From the NCBI GenBank assembly GCA_031273385.1, contig JAISRY010000214.1, forward strand, positions 1 through 17,434: a DNA stretch of 17,434 bases, given 5' to 3'. The stretch comes from Tannerellaceae bacterium. Lineage in GTDB: Bacteria > Bacteroidota > Bacteroidia > Bacteroidales > Tannerellaceae. A program made the position numbers and the translations under genes. The notes under the pieces are model-generated. The model worked only from the letters and a program-made list of their open reading frames with translations. It was not told the origin of the DNA and did not search any database. Within the stretch, counting starts at the first letter, position 1. Each line of letters begins with the position of its first letter. Shown here piece after piece: positions 6,811 through 13,915 of the stretch.

Positions 6811-6815
6811 TAGCA

Positions 6816-6885
6816 TGTTTTTCATGGTATTAGATTTAAGGTTAACAAGAAAGATTGGTTGTCGCGATGACAACCTTCTTTTTTT
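6816..6885 (+). ncRNA. Candidate ~70-nt small RNA or attenuated leader
   Basis: A transcript from the promoter at 6803-6810 would start near 6816 and end in the T-run at 6879-6885 after the GGTTGTC/GACAACC hairpin. An ORF starting at ATG 6824 (23 codons, beginning MVLDLRLTRKIGCRDDN, TAA at 6893-6895) spans this hairpin. The unit may therefore be an sRNA, a micro-protein mRNA, or the leader of a gene now lost. The start is inferred from promoter spacing. I do not assign it to a known RNA family. Confidence 0.45.
6851..6885 (+). terminator. Intrinsic terminator of the short transcript
   Basis: A perfect 7-bp stem GGTTGTC (6857-6863) / GACAACC (6869-6875) with loop GCGAT is flanked by AAG/CTT-type extensions and followed by seven consecutive T at 6879-6885. 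Confidence 0.75.
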
Positions 6886-7031
6886 CTCCGCTTAACCAGC
6901 CGCCACAAACTCTCCCAAGCACTCCCACACTTTCTCAAACACTCCCGAACGCTTCTCACAGCCCTTTTTATCCAATATGTATCGAACAAATAGGAAATAA
7001 TTGTCCGATAAAGCAAAAATAGATAACAAAC

Positions 7032-7066
7032 TTTTCTTTTTCCTCCGGAATTATGGAAAAAGAGAA
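7032..7066. repeat. 12-bp inverted repeat next to a promoter
   Basis: TTTTCTTTTTCC (7032-7043) is complementary to GGAAAAAGAGAA plus neighbours (7055-7066), with one G-T pair and an 11-nt spacer. No T-run follows on either strand, so it is not a normal terminator. It sits 11 nt upstream of the TATATTTG at 7077 and could be an operator. Confidence 0.4.
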
Positions 7067-7076
7067 AAAACATGCC

Positions 7077-7084
7077 TATATTTG
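7077..7084 (+). promoter_or_regulatory. Promoter before a 34-codon ORF
   Basis: TATATTTG is a perfect match to the Bacteroidota -7 element. A TATG at 7052-7055 could act as a weak -33 element with a 21-nt spacer. Confidence 0.45.
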
Positions 7085-7094
7085 CCAACGAAAA

Positions 7095-7199
7095 ATGATC
7101 AAACCGGGAGAAGTCGAAAAAAATATCCCCGAACAAAGTTTTCCATTTCGTAAAACACACGCTCCAATCTCCCTATTTTCCGCATATCGAAATAAATAG
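7095..7199 (+). CDS. Possible 34-aa ORF of unknown function
   Basis: ATG at 7095 to TAG at 7197-7199, beginning MIKPGEVEKNIPEQSFPF. It starts 10 nt after the TATATTTG element, so the message would be almost leaderless. It has no membrane segment and no motif that I recognise. It could be a real micro-protein, the fossil N terminus of a lost gene, or chance. The only support is its position right after a good promoter. Confidence 0.2.
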   Translation: MIKPGEVEKNIPEQSFPFRKTHAPISLFSAYRNK

Positions 7200-7345
7200 A
7201 TTCAACCTGTTTCGTAAAATATGCAGGTGAAAAAATATAGACACGTTTATTCCCAATATAGCTGCCATCCTGTTGCCGTAGCAATTCCACTTGTACAGTC
7301 TTTTCCCGAGTAGCAAATTATACAAATTGAATTGAAAAGCGGATA

Positions 7346-7370
7346 ATTCAACCGTATAATGCGGTTGAAT
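7346..7370 (-). terminator. Hairpin after tyrA
   Basis: ATTCAACCG (7346-7354) and CGGTTGAAT (7362-7370) form a perfect 9-bp stem with a 7-nt loop, 3 nt after the tyrA stop. On the minus strand only a short CTTTTC tract follows a few bases later. It is a plausible end of the aromatic operon, but weaker than the other terminators here. Confidence 0.55.
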
Positions 7371-7373
7371 CGG

Positions 7374-8147
7374 CTATTCTATCTTCCGTCTGATCTCGGA
7401 AAGGTACTCTTTCATGCCTTTCATATCCTTTTTTTCTATGATTTTCTGTAGCTTGGAAAGTTCATCCTGGATATGTTGTATTTGTCCTGGAGTACGTGGA
7501 TTGAAGAGGATTTCGGTCAATAGATAATCGTCTTCAGAGAGTAATCCGCGGGCGATCTTCATGTGTTTTTTGAATGTTGTTCCCGGTGCGTCCTGATGCT
7601 TCATCGTGGCGGCAAAAACCATTGTCGACGCAAAAGGAATTCCCAACGAATAGGCAACAACGCGATCGTGCTCTTCGAACGAGTACTCAAAAATGTTCAA
7701 CTTCAACTTGCCGTACAAATCTTTAAAGAATACCTTCCCTAAATGGTCGCTTTCCGAAATGATAATCGTATTCTCTTTTTCGAGGTTTCCCAGATTGGCA
7801 AAAGTCGGCCCGAACATCGGGTGGGTGGACACAAACGGACGCTTGCAATCCGTATAAAATTGCTGCAAATTGGTCTTCACCGATGCAATATCGGAGAGGA
7901 TACAATAGGGCGGCAAATACGGAATCACCGTTTCGAAAGCTTCGATGGTGTGATGCAGCGTCACACAATTGATCACCAGCTCGGGAGCGAACGCAGCGAT
8001 CTCTTCCGGCTTCAACAGGCGAAGGGCATTATAGATGAAGCGCATGCGCTTCGGGTCGCTTTCCAGTACGGCGACATCGTGTTCAAAACTCAGTAGGTCG
8101 GTGAAGAAAGATCCCATCTTTCCGGCGCCAAGTATCAATATTTTCAT
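7374..8147 (-). CDS. tyrA: Prephenate dehydrogenase (TyrA)
   Basis: Oxidatively decarboxylates prephenate to 4-hydroxyphenylpyruvate, the Tyr branch. The product is 257 aa, a monofunctional single-domain-pair form without a chorismate mutase or ACT domain. The Rossmann motif GAGKMG is at 7-12, an acidic residue after the second strand (VLESD, E29) suggests NAD rather than NADP, and STHPMFGP at 107-114 is the conserved family motif. The C-terminal half is helical, as expected for the dimerisation domain. It is the last gene of the pheA operon, 12 nt after aroF/CM, and is followed by a hairpin. Confidence 0.93.
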   Translation of the reverse strand: MKILILGAGKMGSFFTDLLSFEHDVAVLESDPKRMRFIYNALRLLKPEEIAAFAPELVINCVTLHHTIEAFETVIPYLPPYCILSDIASVKTNLQQFYTDCKRPFVSTHPMFGPTFANLGNLEKENTIIISESDHLGKVFFKDLYGKLKLNIFEYSFEEHDRVVAYSLGIPFASTMVFAATMKHQDAPGTTFKKHMKIARGLLSEDDYLLTEILFNPRTPGQIQHIQDELSKLQKIIEKKDMKGMKEYLSEIRRKIE

Positions 8148-8159
8148 TTCGGTATCGTA

Positions 8160-9230
8160 TTAATCGTTCGTCATAATGATCATCTGTTGGCGGACAGACT
8201 CTTCGTGTATCTCTTTCAGCAGCTCTTTCACAAATTCGGCGCTGAGATCCAGGGATTCGCCCATATCGGCGCGTTTCTCTAAAATCTCGCTGTAACGCGG
8301 CGATTGCAGGATGGGCATGTTATGTTCCTTTTTATATACGCCGATTTCGCGGGAGATACGCATGCGTTTGGCCAGCAGTTCCAGCAACTGTTCGTCGATT
8401 TGGTCTATCTGGCGGCGCAGTTCAGAGAGGTTTTCGGTCGTTTGGGACACGTCGCGGATCACGAGCAGGTTGATGACATAATCAAGGACGTCGGGACTGA
8501 TCTGCTGTTCGGCATCGCTCCATGCCTGATCCGGGTGGCAATGGGATTCGATCATCAGGCCGTCGAAGCTTAGATCCATCGCCTGTTGGGATAGGGGAGC
8601 GATCAATTCGCGCTTCCCCCCGATATGGCTGGGATCGCAGAAGATGGGGATATTGGGGAGGCGGCGGCGTAGCTCGATCGGGATATGCCAGAGCGGTAAG
8701 TTCCGGTATATCTTTTTGTCATACGAACTGAATCCCCTGTGTATCACTCCGATCCGCCGGACGCCCGCGCCATGGATGCGTTCGATCGCGCCGATCCAAA
8801 GTTCGAGGTCGGGGTTCACCGGATTCTTTATCAATACCGGAATATCAGTCCCTTTCAGCGTATCGGCGATTTCCTGTACGGCAAAGGGGTTGACGGTTGT
8901 CCGCGCGCCTATCCACAGGATATCGACACCGGCTTTCAGCGCTTCGACGACATGTTCCCTTGTCGCCACTTCCGTCGCCACATACATTCCCGTCTCTTCC
9001 TTAACCCGTTTCAACCACTGGAGGCCGATCACCCCTACACCCTCAAATCCCCCCGGTTTAGTCCGCGGTTTCCATATCCCGGCACGGAATATTTTTATCC
9101 CTTTAGAAGCAAGCCTACGTGCCGCTTCCATCACCTGTTCTTCCGATTCTGCGCTACAGGGGCCGGCTATAACGATCGGGCGTTGCGGGTCTACACCCTG
9201 TAAAACGATTGATTCAAATTCCATTTTCAT
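8160..9230 (-). CDS. DAHP synthase (type I-beta) fused to AroQ chorismate mutase
   Basis: A 356-aa bifunctional enzyme. The N-terminal part makes 3-deoxy-D-arabino-heptulosonate 7-phosphate from PEP and erythrose 4-phosphate: IAGPCSAESE (21-30), KPRTKPGGFEG (54-64), IGARTTVNPF (108-116), LIKNPVNPDL (133-142), HRGFSSYDKKIYRN (164-177), CDPSHIGG (198-205) and IESHCHPDQAWSDAEQQ. The C-terminal ~85 residues (about 265-350) are an AroQ chorismate mutase, with LRRQIDQIDEQLLELLAKRM and GVYKKEHNMPI, which converts chorismate to prephenate for the neighbouring PheA and TyrA. This AroA-AroQ fusion is usual in Bacteroidota, and it may serve as feedback control through prephenate binding at the mutase site. 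ATG at 9230; it lies 8 nt after the aminotransferase and 12 nt before tyrA. Confidence 0.95.
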   Translation of the reverse strand: MKMEFESIVLQGVDPQRPIVIAGPCSAESEEQVMEAARRLASKGIKIFRAGIWKPRTKPGGFEGVGVIGLQWLKRVKEETGMYVATEVATREHVVEALKAGVDILWIGARTTVNPFAVQEIADTLKGTDIPVLIKNPVNPDLELWIGAIERIHGAGVRRIGVIHRGFSSYDKKIYRNLPLWHIPIELRRRLPNIPIFCDPSHIGGKRELIAPLSQQAMDLSFDGLMIESHCHPDQAWSDAEQQISPDVLDYVINLLVIRDVSQTTENLSELRRQIDQIDEQLLELLAKRMRISREIGVYKKEHNMPILQSPRYSEILEKRADMGESLDLSAEFVKELLKEIHEESVRQQMIIMTND

Positions 9231-9238
9231 TGTGTCTG

Positions 9239-10432
9239 TTATCTATTGTTTCTTTCTATTCTATTTATTCTGTTTAATGCCTCTTCCAACAGTTCATCGT
9301 TGCAGCAGAGCGAAATGCGTATATACCGCTCTCCGCCGCTACCGAATATAAAGCCGGGAGTGACGAATACGTTGGCCTCATATAGCAACTGATCCGCCAG
9401 TTGCCGTCCGTCCGGGCAGCTTGGCGGGATCTTCCCCCACAGGAAGAGGCCGGTTTGCTTCTCATCTACCCGGCACCCCAACGCTTTCATGATCTCGGCA
9501 GCCTTGCCCCGCCTCCCGCGATACGTACTGTTCATCGTATCATACCACTTTTTAGGCGCTTTCAGGGCTTCGACCGCCGCATATTGCATGGGTTTGAACT
9601 GTCCGGAATCCACATTGCTTTTCACGTTCAATATCCATTGGACAAACTGTGCGTTCGACGCCAGCATCGCCATACGCCACCCCGGCATGTTGTGCGACTT
9701 GCTCATCGAGTTCATTTCGATACAGACATCCTTTGCCCCAGGGATGCTTAAAAGGCTCAGCGGGTTGTCGTTGAGGATAAAGCTATACGGGTTGTCGTTG
9801 ACAATAACGATACGGTGTTTGCGCCCGAACTGTACCAGCTTTTCAAACAATTCGCGGCTGGCGTTTGCCCCGGTGGGCATGTGGGGATAATTGACCCACA
9901 TCAGTTTGACGGTCGAAAGATCCGTTTGCTCCAGCGCCTCGAAATCGGGATACCACCCATTTTCCTCTTTCAACGCATAGCCGATAGGATTCGCGCCGAC
10001 CAGACGGCTGACCGACAGATAGGTAGGATAACCCGGATTGGGTATCAGCACGGCGTCTCCCGGATTCAGGAACGAGAGCGATACATGCAGGATGCCCTCT
10101 TTCGAACCGATCAGCGGCAATATCTCCGTAGCGGGGTCGATCTCCACCCCGTACCATGTTTTGTACCAGCGGGAATAGCCCTCCCGGAGTTCGGGGATAC
10201 CCGTATAGGGTTGGTAGCCATGCTCGTTGGGGAGGACGGCATGTGCGCACAGGGCGTCGATGGTTTGCGGGGAGGGTGGGAGGTCGGGGCTACCGATCCC
10301 CAGGTTGATCACCTGCCTGCCGGCGGCGTTCATCGCTGCGACCTCTTTCAGTTTGGTAGAGAAGTAGTATTCGCTTATGCTGCCGACGCGTGTTGCCGGC
10401 ACAATGTCACACGCTTTGTTTTCCTTCTGCAT
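9239..10432 (-). CDS. PLP-dependent aminotransferase, probably aromatic/prephenate
   Basis: Fold type I class I/II aminotransferase of 397 aa. The PLP Schiff-base Lys sits in NSMSKSHNMPGWR (about 243-255) and the PLP-N1-binding Asp in VNDNPYSF. Its position between pheA and aroF/CM points to transamination of phenylpyruvate and hydroxyphenylpyruvate, or of prephenate; substrate choice is inference. The motif usually written NxPNNPTG reads NYPHMPTG, so Met replaces the Asn that normally contacts the PLP ring oxygen. I chose ATG at 10432, which has AGGTG just upstream and a 26-nt overlap with pheA; GTG at 10438 is the alternative (399 aa). Confidence 0.9.
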   Translation of the reverse strand: MQKENKACDIVPATRVGSISEYYFSTKLKEVAAMNAAGRQVINLGIGSPDLPPSPQTIDALCAHAVLPNEHGYQPYTGIPELREGYSRWYKTWYGVEIDPATEILPLIGSKEGILHVSLSFLNPGDAVLIPNPGYPTYLSVSRLVGANPIGYALKEENGWYPDFEALEQTDLSTVKLMWVNYPHMPTGANASRELFEKLVQFGRKHRIVIVNDNPYSFILNDNPLSLLSIPGAKDVCIEMNSMSKSHNMPGWRMAMLASNAQFVQWILNVKSNVDSGQFKPMQYAAVEALKAPKKWYDTMNSTYRGRRGKAAEIMKALGCRVDEKQTGLFLWGKIPPSCPDGRQLADQLLYEANVFVTPGFIFGSGGERYIRISLCCNDELLEEALNRINRIERNNR

Positions 10433-11252
10433 ATTCACCTAATATTTTAAATTCTTTTGTTAATGGGATAACGGCGTCCAACGCCTGCTTGTAACGGGTG
10501 TAATCGGCAAACGTTAGATTGATATAAAACAAATATTGCCATTCGCGCCCGATAATCGGAAGGGACTGTATCTTAGACAGGTTCATATCGTAGAACGAGA
10601 GGATGGAAAGGACTTGCGACAAACTGCCTACGGCATGGGAAAGGGCAAAAACGAGCGACGCCTTGTTCTTTTTCGTTCCGCTCAGCAGTTCGTCCGCCGC
10701 CCAATGGTCGGCGATGGCCAGAAAACGGGTAAAGTTGTGTTTGTTCGTTTCAATCCCTTCGGCCAACACCTCCAGTCCGAACGCCTGCGCCGCCTGCCTG
10801 CTGCAGATAGCCGCCAGCCCTTTCAGCCGGTTGGTGGCTATCCATTCGGCGCTCGCCGCCGTATCTTCCTTTTCCACGATTTTGATATGCGGCAGTGTAT
10901 CAAGGAAATCCATACACTGCATCAGTGCGATGGGATGGGAATTGACCTCCGTTATTTCGCCGATGGATGTGCCGGGGAGGGCGGCCAGCGAATGGGATAT
11001 ACGCAGTTTGTATTCGCCGATGATTTGAAAACCGCTTTTACGGATCAGCTCATGGTTTTGCAGCAAACTGCCGGCAATCGTATTCTCTATGGCCATCATA
11101 CCGATGACGGAGGGGTCTTTTTCGATCGCTTTGATCACCTCTCGGAAAGTAGCGCATGCGATGATTTCGATATCTTCGCCGTCGAAGTAACTATGAGCAG
11201 CCATTTCATGGTACGAACCGGCTATCCCCTGTATTGCAACTCTCTTTTTCAT
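10407..11252 (-). CDS. pheA: Prephenate dehydratase (PheA)
   Basis: Converts prephenate to phenylpyruvate for Phe synthesis. The product is 281 aa with a prephenate dehydratase domain (1-180), including MAIENTIAGSL (53-63) and the catalytic NFTRFLAI (173-180), then a C-terminal ACT domain (about 197-275). It carries no fused chorismate mutase; that activity is in the downstream aroF/CM gene. In the ACT domain the classical Phe-binding ESRP is replaced by IQSLP (228-232), so feedback by Phe may differ from that of enteric PheA. It is the first gene of the operon, with an unusually clear Shine-Dalgarno sequence for this phylum (GGAG at 11257-11260, 4 nt before ATG). It lies behind the leader/attenuator at 11286-11439. 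Confidence 0.95.
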   Translation of the reverse strand: MKKRVAIQGIAGSYHEMAAHSYFDGEDIEIIACATFREVIKAIEKDPSVIGMMAIENTIAGSLLQNHELIRKSGFQIIGEYKLRISHSLAALPGTSIGEITEVNSHPIALMQCMDFLDTLPHIKIVEKEDTAASAEWIATNRLKGLAAICSRQAAQAFGLEVLAEGIETNKHNFTRFLAIADHWAADELLSGTKKNKASLVFALSHAVGSLSQVLSILSFYDMNLSKIQSLPIIGREWQYLFYINLTFADYTRYKQALDAVIPLTKEFKILGEYAEGKQSV

Positions 11253-11285
11253 ATATCTCCTTTTTTACGTTGTATTGCTGACTAA

Positions 11286-11320
11286 ATAAAAAAAGTCCCG
11301 CCTTTGTTCGGCAGGACTTT
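11286..11320 (-). terminator. Attenuator terminator in the pheA leader
   Basis: In the minus-strand RNA, AAAGTCCTGCC (11310-11320) pairs with GGCGGGACTTT (11292-11302) in an 11-bp stem with one G-U pair and a 7-nt loop, followed by a U-rich tail (11286-11294). It lies 33 nt before pheA and after the leader peptide, so if it forms it ends transcription before the operon. Confidence 0.88.
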
Positions 11321-11383
11321 ATTTGTTTTATTGATGATCTGTTGCTTTCGCCAATCTGTTCGTTTTACATATAAACTCCTGCC
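11310..11383 (-). promoter_or_regulatory. Antiterminator of the pheA attenuator
   Basis: In the RNA, GGCAGGAGUUUAU (11383-11371, codons 19-23 of the leader peptide) is complementary to AUAAAGUCCUGCC (11322-11310), 12 of 13 pairs with one G-G. The second strand is the 5' arm of the terminator stem, so the two structures exclude each other. A ribosome stalled at the Phe/Tyr codons leaves codons 19-23 free and the antiterminator forms. A ribosome reaching the stop codon covers them and the terminator forms. Confidence 0.75.
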
Positions 11384-11439
11384 CTTATTCTGCTAAAATA
11401 AAAGGAATAAAAGAAGTATGTAAAACTAAATCGGTTCAT
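11365..11439 (-). CDS. Phe/Tyr-rich leader peptide of the pheA operon
   Basis: A 24-codon ORF with ATG at 11437-11439 and TAA at 11365-11367. It begins MNRFSFTYFFYSFYFSR and ends AGVYM. Six Phe and four Tyr codons are present, nine of these ten within codons 4-15, as in attenuation leader peptides. An A-rich stretch precedes the ATG in place of a Shine-Dalgarno sequence, as is usual in this phylum. It starts about 16 nt after the predicted transcription start and is followed by a matching antiterminator/terminator. The content predicts response to both Phe and Tyr, the two products of the operon. Confidence 0.85.
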   Translation of the reverse strand: MNRFSFTYFFYSFYFSRIRAGVYM

Positions 11440-11460
11440 CTTTTTTGCTTTATCCGGTGA

Positions 11461-11490
11461 CAAAAGTAATATATTTCTTTTACCTGCAAA
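11461..11490 (-). promoter_or_regulatory. Promoter of the pheA-tyrA operon
   Basis: On the minus strand TTTG (11487-11490), an 18-nt spacer and TACTTTTG (11461-11468) match the Bacteroidota promoter. Transcription should start near 11455. It lies only about 20 nt after the hipA stop. Confidence 0.72.
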
Positions 11491-11509
11491 CAAAAAGAGC
11501 GTTTTTTTT

Positions 11510-12595
11510 CTATTTATTCTCCCTAACCAGCTCATTTACCGTTTTTATCAGCTCGCTCGCCCGTTCTTTATTGAGTCCGGCTTTTTCGGCGACGGCCATC
11601 ATGTCGTTTATAGTTGGTTCGCCGCTGTTATTGATCGTTGTCGTATGGAAGCCATTGAAACCACGACTTGGCAGCAGGTCGTATGCAGGGGAGAGTTTCC
11701 ATTCTCCGCGAATCAGTTGGAAAGAGAAGTTTTTCGCATGGTCGTCACGGTTTTTGATAGCCACATTAAATGCCATCAGGCGGAAAAGGGCATACACCTC
11801 TTCTGTATTTTTAGTCAAAATATGACATAGTTTCAACAAATCGCCATAATCCAAGCTTGGGACACGGTAATCCGCATGCAGCAAACCGGCGGCGCTTACC
11901 GTATGAACTTTACCCTCAGATGTCCTGTCAAAGCGCTCTACGGCAAAGTATTTCCCCTCAAACAGGTTTGTCCCAGGCATCTTGATGCCGCACTTTTTGG
12001 CAAGCAGCGAATACTTATACTCAATCTCACCAATATGTGCAGGGTCGATCGTTGCTTTAAATTTAACAAGCCATTCTTTCTGGTCAATTTTCACAAATAC
12101 CTTAGGCCTTGCTCCGCCCGGTGAACCTCCGTATTGATATAGCTTATCGAGAGAGCCGCCATCATGGTCGGTCGTCAATATCTTTTCGGTTTCGGCAGCC
12201 AGCGCGTTAAAATCAACGATTTCATCAGGAATCGATTCGCTGTAGTCCGGCCTAAATTCCAATGCGCCCCGCCCTGTGCTGCCCACCAGCGCCAATCTTT
12301 GGAGAAGCGTAAACTTCTCCGGTGCAACGCCTTTACTCCTAAAATACCTGTCGAGGATAAGATTGCCCCAACCGTCGGGCAGACTGTCGTCAAACACGCC
12401 GAACCCTCCATTGAAAGGGGTACGTTTCGCAACAAACACTTCGGCTTTAAGGGGAAGATGAAACGGGGAGATGGATTTCCCTGAAGCTAAATAGGTTACA
12501 TCATATTCAAATGCGCAAAGCATGTCGGGGGTAGAAGCTATCCGCCCCACTTTCACGCCATTCATAAACACTTCGACGACTTTCACCTCATGCAT
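11510..12595 (-). CDS. HipA-family serine/threonine kinase toxin
   Basis: A 361-aa HipA-type kinase. The N-terminal couple-HipA domain has FHLPL, FDDSLPDGWG (67-77) and YFRSKG. The HipA core then has a Gly-rich loop QYGGSPGGARPK (154-165), WLVKF (ATP Lys K178), catalytic Asp D284 in NRDDHAKNFSF (282-292) and the Mg-binding Asp D306 in LSPAYDLLP. All key residues are present, so the kinase is probably active. HipA of E. coli phosphorylates glutamyl-tRNA synthetase and causes persistence; the target here is unknown. It overlaps the antitoxin gene by 8 nt (ATGCATGA). It is shorter than E. coli HipA (440 aa) but has both domains. Confidence 0.92.
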   Translation of the reverse strand: MHEVKVVEVFMNGVKVGRIASTPDMLCAFEYDVTYLASGKSISPFHLPLKAEVFVAKRTPFNGGFGVFDDSLPDGWGNLILDRYFRSKGVAPEKFTLLQRLALVGSTGRGALEFRPDYSESIPDEIVDFNALAAETEKILTTDHDGGSLDKLYQYGGSPGGARPKVFVKIDQKEWLVKFKATIDPAHIGEIEYKYSLLAKKCGIKMPGTNLFEGKYFAVERFDRTSEGKVHTVSAAGLLHADYRVPSLDYGDLLKLCHILTKNTEEVYALFRLMAFNVAIKNRDDHAKNFSFQLIRGEWKLSPAYDLLPSRGFNGFHTTTINNSGEPTINDMMAVAEKAGLNKERASELIKTVNELVRENK

Positions 12596-12905
12596 TTCGT
12601 GATCCTCTCTTTCTTTTTTTCACCTCCTGCGTTTTCAACAGTTCGTCTATACTCTGGTAGGACTTCTTTGTAAACAAGTCCATGAAACTATCCATATCAT
12701 CCAGGGTGAAAGCGCACAGAAGCAGATTACGAAACGTAATTTCTCCCGTATTTTCAAATTTACGGTAGGCATCGTACCCTACACCTGCCCGCTTGGCAAA
12801 AGCCCTTTGCGTCAGATTCCGTTCCAGTCTTCTTTCCCTGACCCTTTCTGCAATTTCTTTCAGGAGTGAATCGGGAGTGCGATCAATAATTGCTTTAATA
12901 TCCAC
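12588..12905 (-). CDS. HipB-like HTH antitoxin/repressor
   Basis: A 105-aa protein with a Cro/C1-type helix-turn-helix at about 20-70 (RERRLERNLTQRAFAKRAGV then YRKFENTGEI) and a Lys/Arg-rich C-terminal tail (VKKRKRGSRNA). Its gene lies immediately upstream of hipA with an 8-nt overlap, the classical antitoxin-toxin order. It likely neutralises the kinase and represses its own promoter; a TGTGT/ACACA dyad overlaps the predicted start of transcription. The fit is to family and position, since no HipB-specific residue could be verified. Confidence 0.85.
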   Translation of the reverse strand: MDIKAIIDRTPDSLLKEIAERVRERRLERNLTQRAFAKRAGVGYDAYRKFENTGEITFRNLLLCAFTLDDMDSFMDLFTKKSYQSIDELLKTQEVKKRKRGSRNA

Positions 12906-12933
12906 AATTAAACGAATATAATACTATTTAGTG

Positions 12934-12947
12934 TGTGTTTTTACACA
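12934..12947. promoter_or_regulatory. Candidate HipB operator
   Basis: TGTGT-TTTT-ACACA is a perfect 5-bp dyad with a 4-nt spacer. It lies between the -7 element at 12952-12959 and the hipB ATG, overlapping the predicted transcription start. The position suits a repressor site; the assignment is inference. Confidence 0.4.
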
Positions 12948-12951
12948 ATTA

Positions 12952-12959
12952 CAAAGATA
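12952..12959 (-). promoter_or_regulatory. hipBA promoter (-7 element)
   Basis: TATCTTTG on the minus strand, with a TTG 20 nt upstream (in ACTTGCACG). It gives a leader of about 40 nt before hipB. Confidence 0.7.
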
Positions 12960-12988
12960 GGTATAATCATCGACACGTGCAAGTTTTA

Positions 12989-13915
12989 TCACACCACACG
13001 TTGATAGGCTTGTATCGAAAGCATCTCTTTGGGGATGGACTTTTTGATGCCGTCGATCAGGATACGGGCGATGGAATGGCGGATAAAGTCCTTTCTGGTG
13101 ACAAAAACGATCTCCCGCGTCGGCTTGGGTATGGCAAAAGGGCGAACCAGCTCTTTCTGTTCGTCGTTCAGCTGATGCACCGCCAACTCGGGGATGAACG
13201 TAATCCCGTTGCCACCCTCTACCATGCGCATAAAGGTCTCCATACTGCCCAACCGGTAGGCGCCCTGATGGAGCTTGACCTGTTCCATCTGGCAAAAACG
13301 CATCAACTGATCCCTGAAACAATGCCCCTCGTCCAACAGCCAGAGCCGCTCCCCGCTGATATCCGACGAACGGATCAGCTCGTTCTTGAAGATGGATTCG
13401 TTGCGGGCGACATACCCGAAGAATTGTTCGTAAAACAGCCTGTCGCCCTGCAATTGAGGCTCGGAGGGTTGGGAGGCGATGATGGCGGCGTCGATTTCAC
13501 CGTTGGTCAGCGCGGTGAGCGTAGGCGTCGTCTTCATTTCCAGGATATGGATATCCAGCCCTTTATGCTTCTCCGTCAACTGCTGGAAGAAACGGGGAAT
13601 CAGGTAGGGGGCGATCGTCGGCAAAACGGCCAAACGGAACGTACCCTTGATGGATAGCTCCTCCTCCGTAATGATATCCTTGATCAAAGAGGCCTGATAC
13701 AACACCTTGCGTGCCTGTTCTATTACTTTACGTCCGGCGCGTGTGGGCTTGACAGGCTGCACGTTACGGTCGAAAAGCTTGATGCCCAATTCATCTTCCA
13801 GCTTCTGAATCATCATACTTAACGTCGGCTGCGTGACGCAACAATGCTCCGCCGCCTTTGCAAAATGGCGGAAAGTATCGACGGCCAGCACATATTCCAA
13901 TTGTTGTATAGTCAT
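12989..13915 (-). CDS. oxyR: Peroxide-sensing LysR-type regulator OxyR
   Basis: A 308-aa LysR-type regulator. The winged HTH is at 1-60 (LEYVLAVDTFRHFAKAAEHC, then TQPTLSMMIQKLEDELG), the substrate-domain fold follows from about 90. The redox pair is C199 in LDEGHC and C208 in MRFC, the same numbering and spacing as E. coli OxyR. On oxidation by H2O2 these form a disulfide and the protein activates peroxide-defence genes. The gene starts 25 nt after the SGNH hydrolase stop without a promoter in the gap, so it may be read from the M20/SGNH transcript. No peroxidase or dps gene is adjacent in this window. The HTH also carries C25/C26, which are unlikely to be sensing residues. Confidence 0.94.
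   Translation of the reverse strand: MTIQQLEYVLAVDTFRHFAKAAEHCCVTQPTLSMMIQKLEDELGIKLFDRNVQPVKPTRAGRKVIEQARKVLYQASLIKDIITEEELSIKGTFRLAVLPTIAPYLIPRFFQQLTEKHKGLDIHILEMKTTPTLTALTNGEIDAAIIASQPSEPQLQGDRLFYEQFFGYVARNESIFKNELIRSSDISGERLWLLDEGHCFRDQLMRFCQMEQVKLHQGAYRLGSMETFMRMVEGGNGITFIPELAVHQLNDEQKELVRPFAIPKPTREIVFVTRKDFIRHSIARILIDGIKKSIPKEMLSIQAYQRVV

Follow-up and report, generated by a model that had tools for sequence, protein, structure and literature searches.

Attenuation at the pheL-pheA locus of Escherichia coli is an established mechanism. The ilvGMEDA and thr leaders of the same organism illustrate that one leader peptide can read more than one amino acid. In Bacteroidetes, where promoters follow the consensus TTTG / TAnnTTTG, the Bacteroid-trp motif attenuates trp genes.

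Published descriptions closer to the present locus are sparse in detail. A passage of PMC1183508 counts pheA among attenuated operons. For Flavobacterium psychrophilum, passages of PMC9723704 propose leader-peptide attenuation of amino-acid operons and name 5′ elements of pheA (structured) and hisG, with conservation given for Flavobacteriaceae. That pheA element comes from the same phylum and precedes the same gene as the leader described here, but those passages name it without a peptide, stems or amino-acid specificity. In Bacteroides thetaiotaomicron, which belongs to the same order as our organism, long 5′ UTRs carry leader-peptide-like sORFs for which attenuation is suggested; passages of the report name BT_4401, not pheA (PMC7366714). 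The Bacteroid-trp motif (RF01692) is presented in passages of PMC2864571 as a candidate Bacteroidetes cis-regulatory RNA and classed as not a riboswitch. Like our leader it is a cis-regulatory candidate of Bacteroidetes, yet it matched neither the window at the gathering threshold nor any of 11 pheA loci searched at E values up to 1. No report of a Phe/Tyr pheA leader in Bacteroidales was found among the titles and abstract openings retrieved from the open-licence literature.

Here we analyse a window of 17,434 nucleotides from a Tannerellaceae bacterium (contig JAISRY010000214.1). Judged from its sequence and from folding models, the region upstream of pheA is very likely to be a ribosome-mediated transcription attenuator of the trp/phe kind, controlling a pheA-aminotransferase-DAHP synthase/chorismate mutase-tyrA operon. 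This reading was proposed in an initial annotation and is now supported by anatomy, conservation, covariation and an in-silico switch. With pheL-pheA (RF01859) the locus shares a Phe-rich leader peptide, competing stems before pheA and the same behaviour when a ribosome is masked in silico. It differs in that pheL has 15 codons with 7 Phe and no Tyr, whereas the present leader contains both Phe and Tyr and precedes an operon for both. In addition, pheA of E. coli is a chorismate mutase fusion with tyrA-aroF on the opposite strand, in contrast to the single operon in the window. Reading of several amino acids is shared with the ilvGMEDA and thr leaders, which serve different pathways. The mechanism itself is textbook material. 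New relative to earlier work are the anatomy of the element, the evidence that its stems covary, the reading of Phe together with Tyr, the Trp-containing variants and the class-wide spread.

Anatomy of the leader and its operon

All parts of the element lie on the reverse strand, in the order hipA-like gene end (11510), promoter, leader ORF, terminator and pheA start (11252). The promoter (11461-11490) consists of TTTG at 11490-11487, an 18-nt spacer and TACTTTTG at 11468-11461, and fits the Bacteroidetes consensus. It is followed by a leader ORF (11365-11439, ATG to TAA) encoding the 24-codon peptide MNRFSFTYFFYSFYFSRIRAGVYM with 6 Phe and 4 Tyr, of which F4, F6, Y8, F9, F10, Y11, F13, Y14 and F15 are the proposed control codons. 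Thus the biosynthetic operon is preceded by a short ORF dense in codons for its product amino acids, and an intrinsic terminator separates this ORF from the first gene.

The competing stems are formed by four strands. Strand 1 contributes two helices to a protecting stem in which codons 5-15 pair with codon 17 to the stop, as seen in the single-sequence fold. The outer helix (11416-11425) pairs with 11363-11372, which contains the stop codon, and is supported by both fold and covariation. The inner helix (11396-11404) lies inside the Phe/Tyr codons and pairs with 11382-11390, which overlaps the antiterminator strand at its first two G; both sides of this helix covary. Strand 2, the 5′ arm of the antiterminator (GGCAGGAGTTTAT, 11371-11383), pairs with strand 3 (ATAAAGTCCTGCC, 11310-11322) at 12 of 13 positions, the exception being a single G-G mismatch. 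Positions 11320-11310 of strand 3 double as the 5′ arm of the intrinsic terminator (11286-11320), which has an 11-bp stem (11320-11292), a loop of 7 and a T-run from 11291; antiterminator and terminator are therefore mutually exclusive. The promoter, the 24-codon leader with its Phe and Tyr counts, the terminator and the 12/13 antiterminator had all been placed correctly on the reverse strand by the initial annotation. A terminator scan of positions 7000-13000 returned five hits, a total not above that of shuffled sequences (mean 7.3), and the attenuator terminator is the only one on the reverse strand.

The genes 3′ of the attenuator look like Phe and Tyr synthesis genes. The first structural gene, a putative pheA for prephenate dehydratase (10407-11252, reverse strand), scores 185 bits (E 1.6e-54) with NCBIfam PRK11898, which falls below its curated cut-off (219). 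It is followed on the same strand by a putative PLP-dependent aminotransferase (9239-10438; best NCBIfam match E 3.1e-117), a DAHP synthase/chorismate mutase fusion (8160-9230; PRK12595, E 1.8e-58) and a prephenate dehydrogenase, tyrA (7374-8147; best NCBIfam match E 2.4e-18), each likewise below the curated cut-off. Chorismate mutase models match residues 262-353 of the DAHP synthase fusion, again below their curated cut-offs.

Two neighbouring features were also observed. A HipB/HipA-like pair (11510-12905, reverse strand) adjoins the pheA promoter upstream on the same strand, and the terminator scan found no reverse-strand terminator between this pair and the attenuator. Downstream of the operon and on the opposite strand, the FopS small RNA (RF04319, 75.8 bits) is found at 6815-6888 of the window.

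Conservation and covariation in Bacteroidia

The initial annotation staked its proposal on relatives carrying the same short ORF and competing stems, and these are indeed present. A PheA search matched 15 of 18 genomes in the genus, 58 of 59 in the family, 52 of 119 in the order and 43 of 148 in the class. The resulting set comprised 144 pheA loci from 150 matching genomes. Absent from it are G069, G105, G199, G274, G305 and G317; G199 entered later as L156 and is negative for the leader. One locus with only 15 nt upstream (L053) was dropped, leaving 143 loci with sufficient upstream DNA. A script called a leader where an ATG/GTG ORF of 10-45 codons with at least four F/Y/W in ten residues was followed by an intrinsic terminator at most 110 nt downstream. 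Such a leader precedes pheA in 121/143 loci, as opposed to 2/715 dinucleotide shuffles and 1/143 reverse complements. In 103/121 of these loci, compared with 5/121 reverse complements, a TAnnTTTG motif lies no more than 75 nt before the start of the leader. The attenuator layout therefore appears to be unexpectedly widespread, occurring in most examined pheA loci of the class.

The 22 script-negative loci were inspected by eye. Nine of them carry a Phe/Tyr-rich ORF (L036, L049, L050, L064, L084, L085, L086, L126, L132) and were missed mostly because of bulged, weak or distant terminators; the other 13 have no Phe/Tyr-rich ORF by eye either. In seven loci (L069-L072, L074, L081 and L136) no leader was detected before pheA, and the upstream DNA of L081 and L136 resembles, by eye, the end of another gene. 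Thirty of 80 named loci, picked by name and spread, were also inspected: 21 are positive by script, 8 further by eye, and one (L222) is without a leader. Phocaeicola vulgatus is script-positive, and Bacteroides fragilis and B. xylanisolvens are positive by eye.

We also sampled 30 loci from 102 matching genomes selected for other classes. Two of these proved to be Bacteroidia (L169 positive, L156 negative), and none of the 28 loci inspected from other classes of the phylum has a leader with a terminator.

Covariation was analysed in an alignment of 58 of 60 family loci, with L107 and L114 left out as no leader was found in them. A consensus fold of these loci, computed with no structure supplied, recovers both the protecting stem and the terminator. 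The protecting stem is paired in 96.1% of cells, with 10 pairs changed on both sides and 70 double-change cells compared with 17.7 in shuffles; none of 500 shuffles equals it on any measure. Slid out of register, it is paired in only 40-55% of cells. As an example, one inner-helix pair is C-G in 46 sequences and U-A in 12, its 5′ side being the third base of Tyr14 in the window. The initial annotation had held that there was no third protecting stem; the protector is in fact present, with the strongest covariation of the element. Because this stem exists and covaries most, the layout is that of a classical three-stem 1:2 / 2:3 / 3:4 attenuator.

Covariation in the two competing stems, which the initial annotation had proposed as a check, is found in the family for the terminator and only between families for the antiterminator. 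The terminator is 99.5% paired, with four pairs changed on both sides and none of 500 shuffles equal. The antiterminator is 94.6% paired with an almost invariant core, and no covariation measure rises above shuffles within the family (58 to 126 of 500 as high). Since these in-family pair counts are uninformative, the test was shifted to other families. Across 63 other-family loci, own arms score 20.7, swapped arms 15.1 and shuffled arms 12.3, and the own arm is matched in score by 14.6% of the swapped arms and by 4.4% of the shuffled ones; these arm-swap scores carry a slight bias, as the pairing score was among the terms used to choose the ORF and terminator. Within the family, own and swapped arms score 23.4 and 22.8. 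Other-family duplexes include GGCAGGA/TCCTGCC, AGCGGGA/TCCCGCT and AAGGTGAGGC/GCCTCACCTT. In 12 of the 58 family loci the strand-2 core stands in a different frame, and in 5 of those 12 it is not fully within the ORF. As the frame varies, selection at strand 2 acts on RNA rather than peptide.

The protecting stem and the antiterminator are mutually exclusive in the family, and the tendency extends to other families. Until strand 3 is transcribed, pairing of the strand-2 region to strand 1 has a family mean of 0.79 and a minimum of 0.60. Pairing of the antiterminator arm with strand 1 averages 0.79 in the 58 family loci compared with 0.51 when strand 1 is shuffled (14/290 shuffles at least as high). 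The corresponding values for 61 other-family loci are 0.68 and 0.46 (40/305 shuffles at least as high), two of the 63 leaders being too short and omitted.

Predicted ribosome response and alternative readings

The consequences of ribosome position were modelled by folding RNA truncated after strand 3 while a 29-nt footprint, standing for the ribosome, was masked codon by codon. Over the 58 family leaders, the antiterminator has a mean probability of 0.97-0.98 while codons 3-15 occupy the A site, dropping to 0.74 at codon 16, 0.15 at codon 17 and 0 from codon 18. Codon 15 is the last control codon of the window leader. The switch position was scored in 120 of 121 leaders, one family leader being unscorable. 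Strand-3 pairing falls 1-3 codons past the end of the aromatic run in 54/57 family and 56/63 other leaders, counts taken on real leaders only; in the remaining scored leaders the fall comes earlier or later. In total, 110 of 120 leaders have the antiterminator present at the control codons and lose it 1-3 codons on. In the window leader (L001), the switch codon ranges over 17-19 depending on the assumed footprint, smaller footprints giving 18-19. The same calculation returned the expected profile for E. coli pheL, with low values at codons 2-4, high values over codons 5-14 and a fall at codon 15; values were again low with the ribosome at the stop codon or absent. In silico, a ribosome at the control codons thus permits the antiterminator and one past them prevents it. 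This bears out the earlier suggestion that, with the antiterminator strand near the end of the ORF, ribosome position would decide the outcome directly.

In most family leaders, when no ribosome is present and strand 4 has yet to be transcribed, the equilibrium favours the antiterminator over the protector. The core pairs of the antiterminator reach a family mean of 0.65, and 0.97 in the window leader. As a measure of arms paired, the values are 0.68 for the family, 0.63 for other leaders and 0.21 for E. coli pheL; the protector is accordingly modelled as weaker at equilibrium than in pheL. Since the antiterminator wins at equilibrium, the protector would have to work by forming first.

For the attenuator model we infer the start site, stalling, termination and response to Phe/Tyr as follows. 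RNA polymerase would start just past the promoter and a ribosome would follow on the leader ORF. With charged tRNA-Phe or tRNA-Tyr in short supply, the ribosome would wait at codons 4-15 and cover strand 1, blocking the protecting stem. The free strand 2 (codons 19-23) could then capture strand 3, the 5′ arm of the terminator, allowing read-through into pheA. When both tRNAs are charged, the ribosome would reach the stop codon and itself mask strand 2, which the protecting stem would hold after ribosome release. Strand 3 would then pair with strand 4, and transcription would stop in the T-run at about 11291-11286.

A simpler version, put forward in the initial annotation, is that the ribosome alone masks or frees strand 2, with no protecting stem involved. 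This two-state idea keeps some force in the models given the equilibrium advantage of the antiterminator in most family leaders, and a ribosome beyond codon 17 blocks the antiterminator unaided. Against it stand the protecting stem, which appears in the consensus fold and has the strongest covariation of the element, and the pairing of strand 2 with leader codons above that with shuffled strand 1, in the family and in other families alike. We regard this version as improbable, and it was rejected on the consensus fold and the pair counts, which show the protecting stem.

We see very little chance that the leader RNA binds a regulatory protein or metabolite, as a riboswitch, T-box or TRAP-like element would, and that the ORF is incidental. 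Such an element could equally be structured with competing stems, but no Rfam cis-regulatory family matches the window at the gathering threshold, T-box included. Moreover, the aromatic codon run is retained across families whose RNA arms differ in sequence, and the switch sits directly behind that run. It is scarcely credible that the ORF product is a functional small protein rich in aromatic residues and that the terminator is ordinary. The peptide is similar across the family, as would be expected of a protein, but F and Y replace one another, additional aromatic codons appear, and the C-terminal frame and stop vary while GGCAGGA is kept; a constant terminator 40 nt upstream of pheA would also switch the operon off. 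By every feature testable from sequence, the element appears to belong with the ribosome-mediated attenuators of the trp/phe type.

Amino acids probably sensed and leaders before other operons

The family leaders are consistent with the initial proposal that both Phe and Tyr are read: the 58 peptides contain 296 Phe and 290 Tyr but lack Trp. The 63 other-family leaders contain 21 Trp residues in 21 leaders, among them L056, L059, L068, L121, L128 and L140, with the Trp inside or edging the Phe/Tyr run. At least three F/Y are present among the six neighbours of 15/21 of these Trp residues; when the non-F/Y residues of each leader were permuted 2000 times, the mean count was 4.9 and the maximum 12. 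Because Trp codons lie within the aromatic run, the leader in many lineages probably reads Phe, Tyr and Trp, which suits an operon with a DAHP synthase. Tyr23 is unlikely to be a control codon, as it falls within the antiterminator strand and many relatives have Cys there.

If the element works as drawn, gut Bacteroidales would already possess a reporter of their amino-acid supply, and transcription-translation coupling in the phylum would become directly testable. Its variable Phe/Tyr/Trp make-up suggests that one leader could be tuned to several end products. The class that carries the pheA leader includes Bacteroides fragilis and Phocaeicola vulgatus.

Similar leaders were found before other amino-acid operons. 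When the genus genomes were scanned with a covariance model built on the pheA leader, 15/18 returned a single strong hit (E below 1e-19), which coincided with that leader. These are the same 15 genomes with a PheA match and their leaders were in the model’s own alignment, so the hits show only the absence of a second close copy. Of the many weaker hits, eight were examined by eye: three lie before hisG with His runs, one before a leuA-type gene and one before trpB, and three are uninformative. Direct searches in the family found a leader with a terminator in 19/22 hisG loci (L256-L277; at least three His in eight residues; shuffles 0/110), 18/22 trpB loci (L307-L328; two Trp in eight; shuffles 0/110) and 20/25 leuA loci (L332-L356; six L/I/V in eight; shuffles 0/125), the pooled shuffles giving 0/345. 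The trpB set was used in place of trpE because trpB precedes trpE in the contigs; 25 loci were fetched and the 22 above the family cut-off were used. Upstream regions of trpE have a terminator in 0/21 cases, and the trpB leaders have weak antiterminator pairing in a direct scan.

On balance, we favour a broader reading in which Bacteroidia generally control amino-acid synthesis by ribosome-mediated attenuation, with a Phe/Tyr (often also Trp) leader before the operon that includes the first aromatic step. If true, ribosome and RNA polymerase would run in step on nascent RNA throughout the class, and the device would have arisen inside the class independently of the proteobacterial leaders. The suggestion in the initial annotation that the Bacteroidota leader is an independent solution is only plausible, considering that 0/28 other-class loci are positive and that no searched locus reaches the Phe_leader threshold. 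The window has no match to RF01859 at the gathering threshold. A Phe_leader search of 11 loci at E values up to 1 returned only Phocaeicola vulgatus (29.8 bits compared with a threshold of 55, E 0.64), in which the pheA leader (L203:4338-4484, forward strand) aligns to the entire model. This match may reflect convergence, chance or very distant kinship. Other below-threshold Rfam matches overlapping pheA leaders in the 11 loci were isrJ in the window leader (E 0.15) and Thr_leader in L080 (E 0.89). A distant pheA leader (L144:689-796, forward strand) also resembles the Rhizobiales sRNA Atu_C9, at 28.1 bits relative to a threshold of 40 (E 0.0019).
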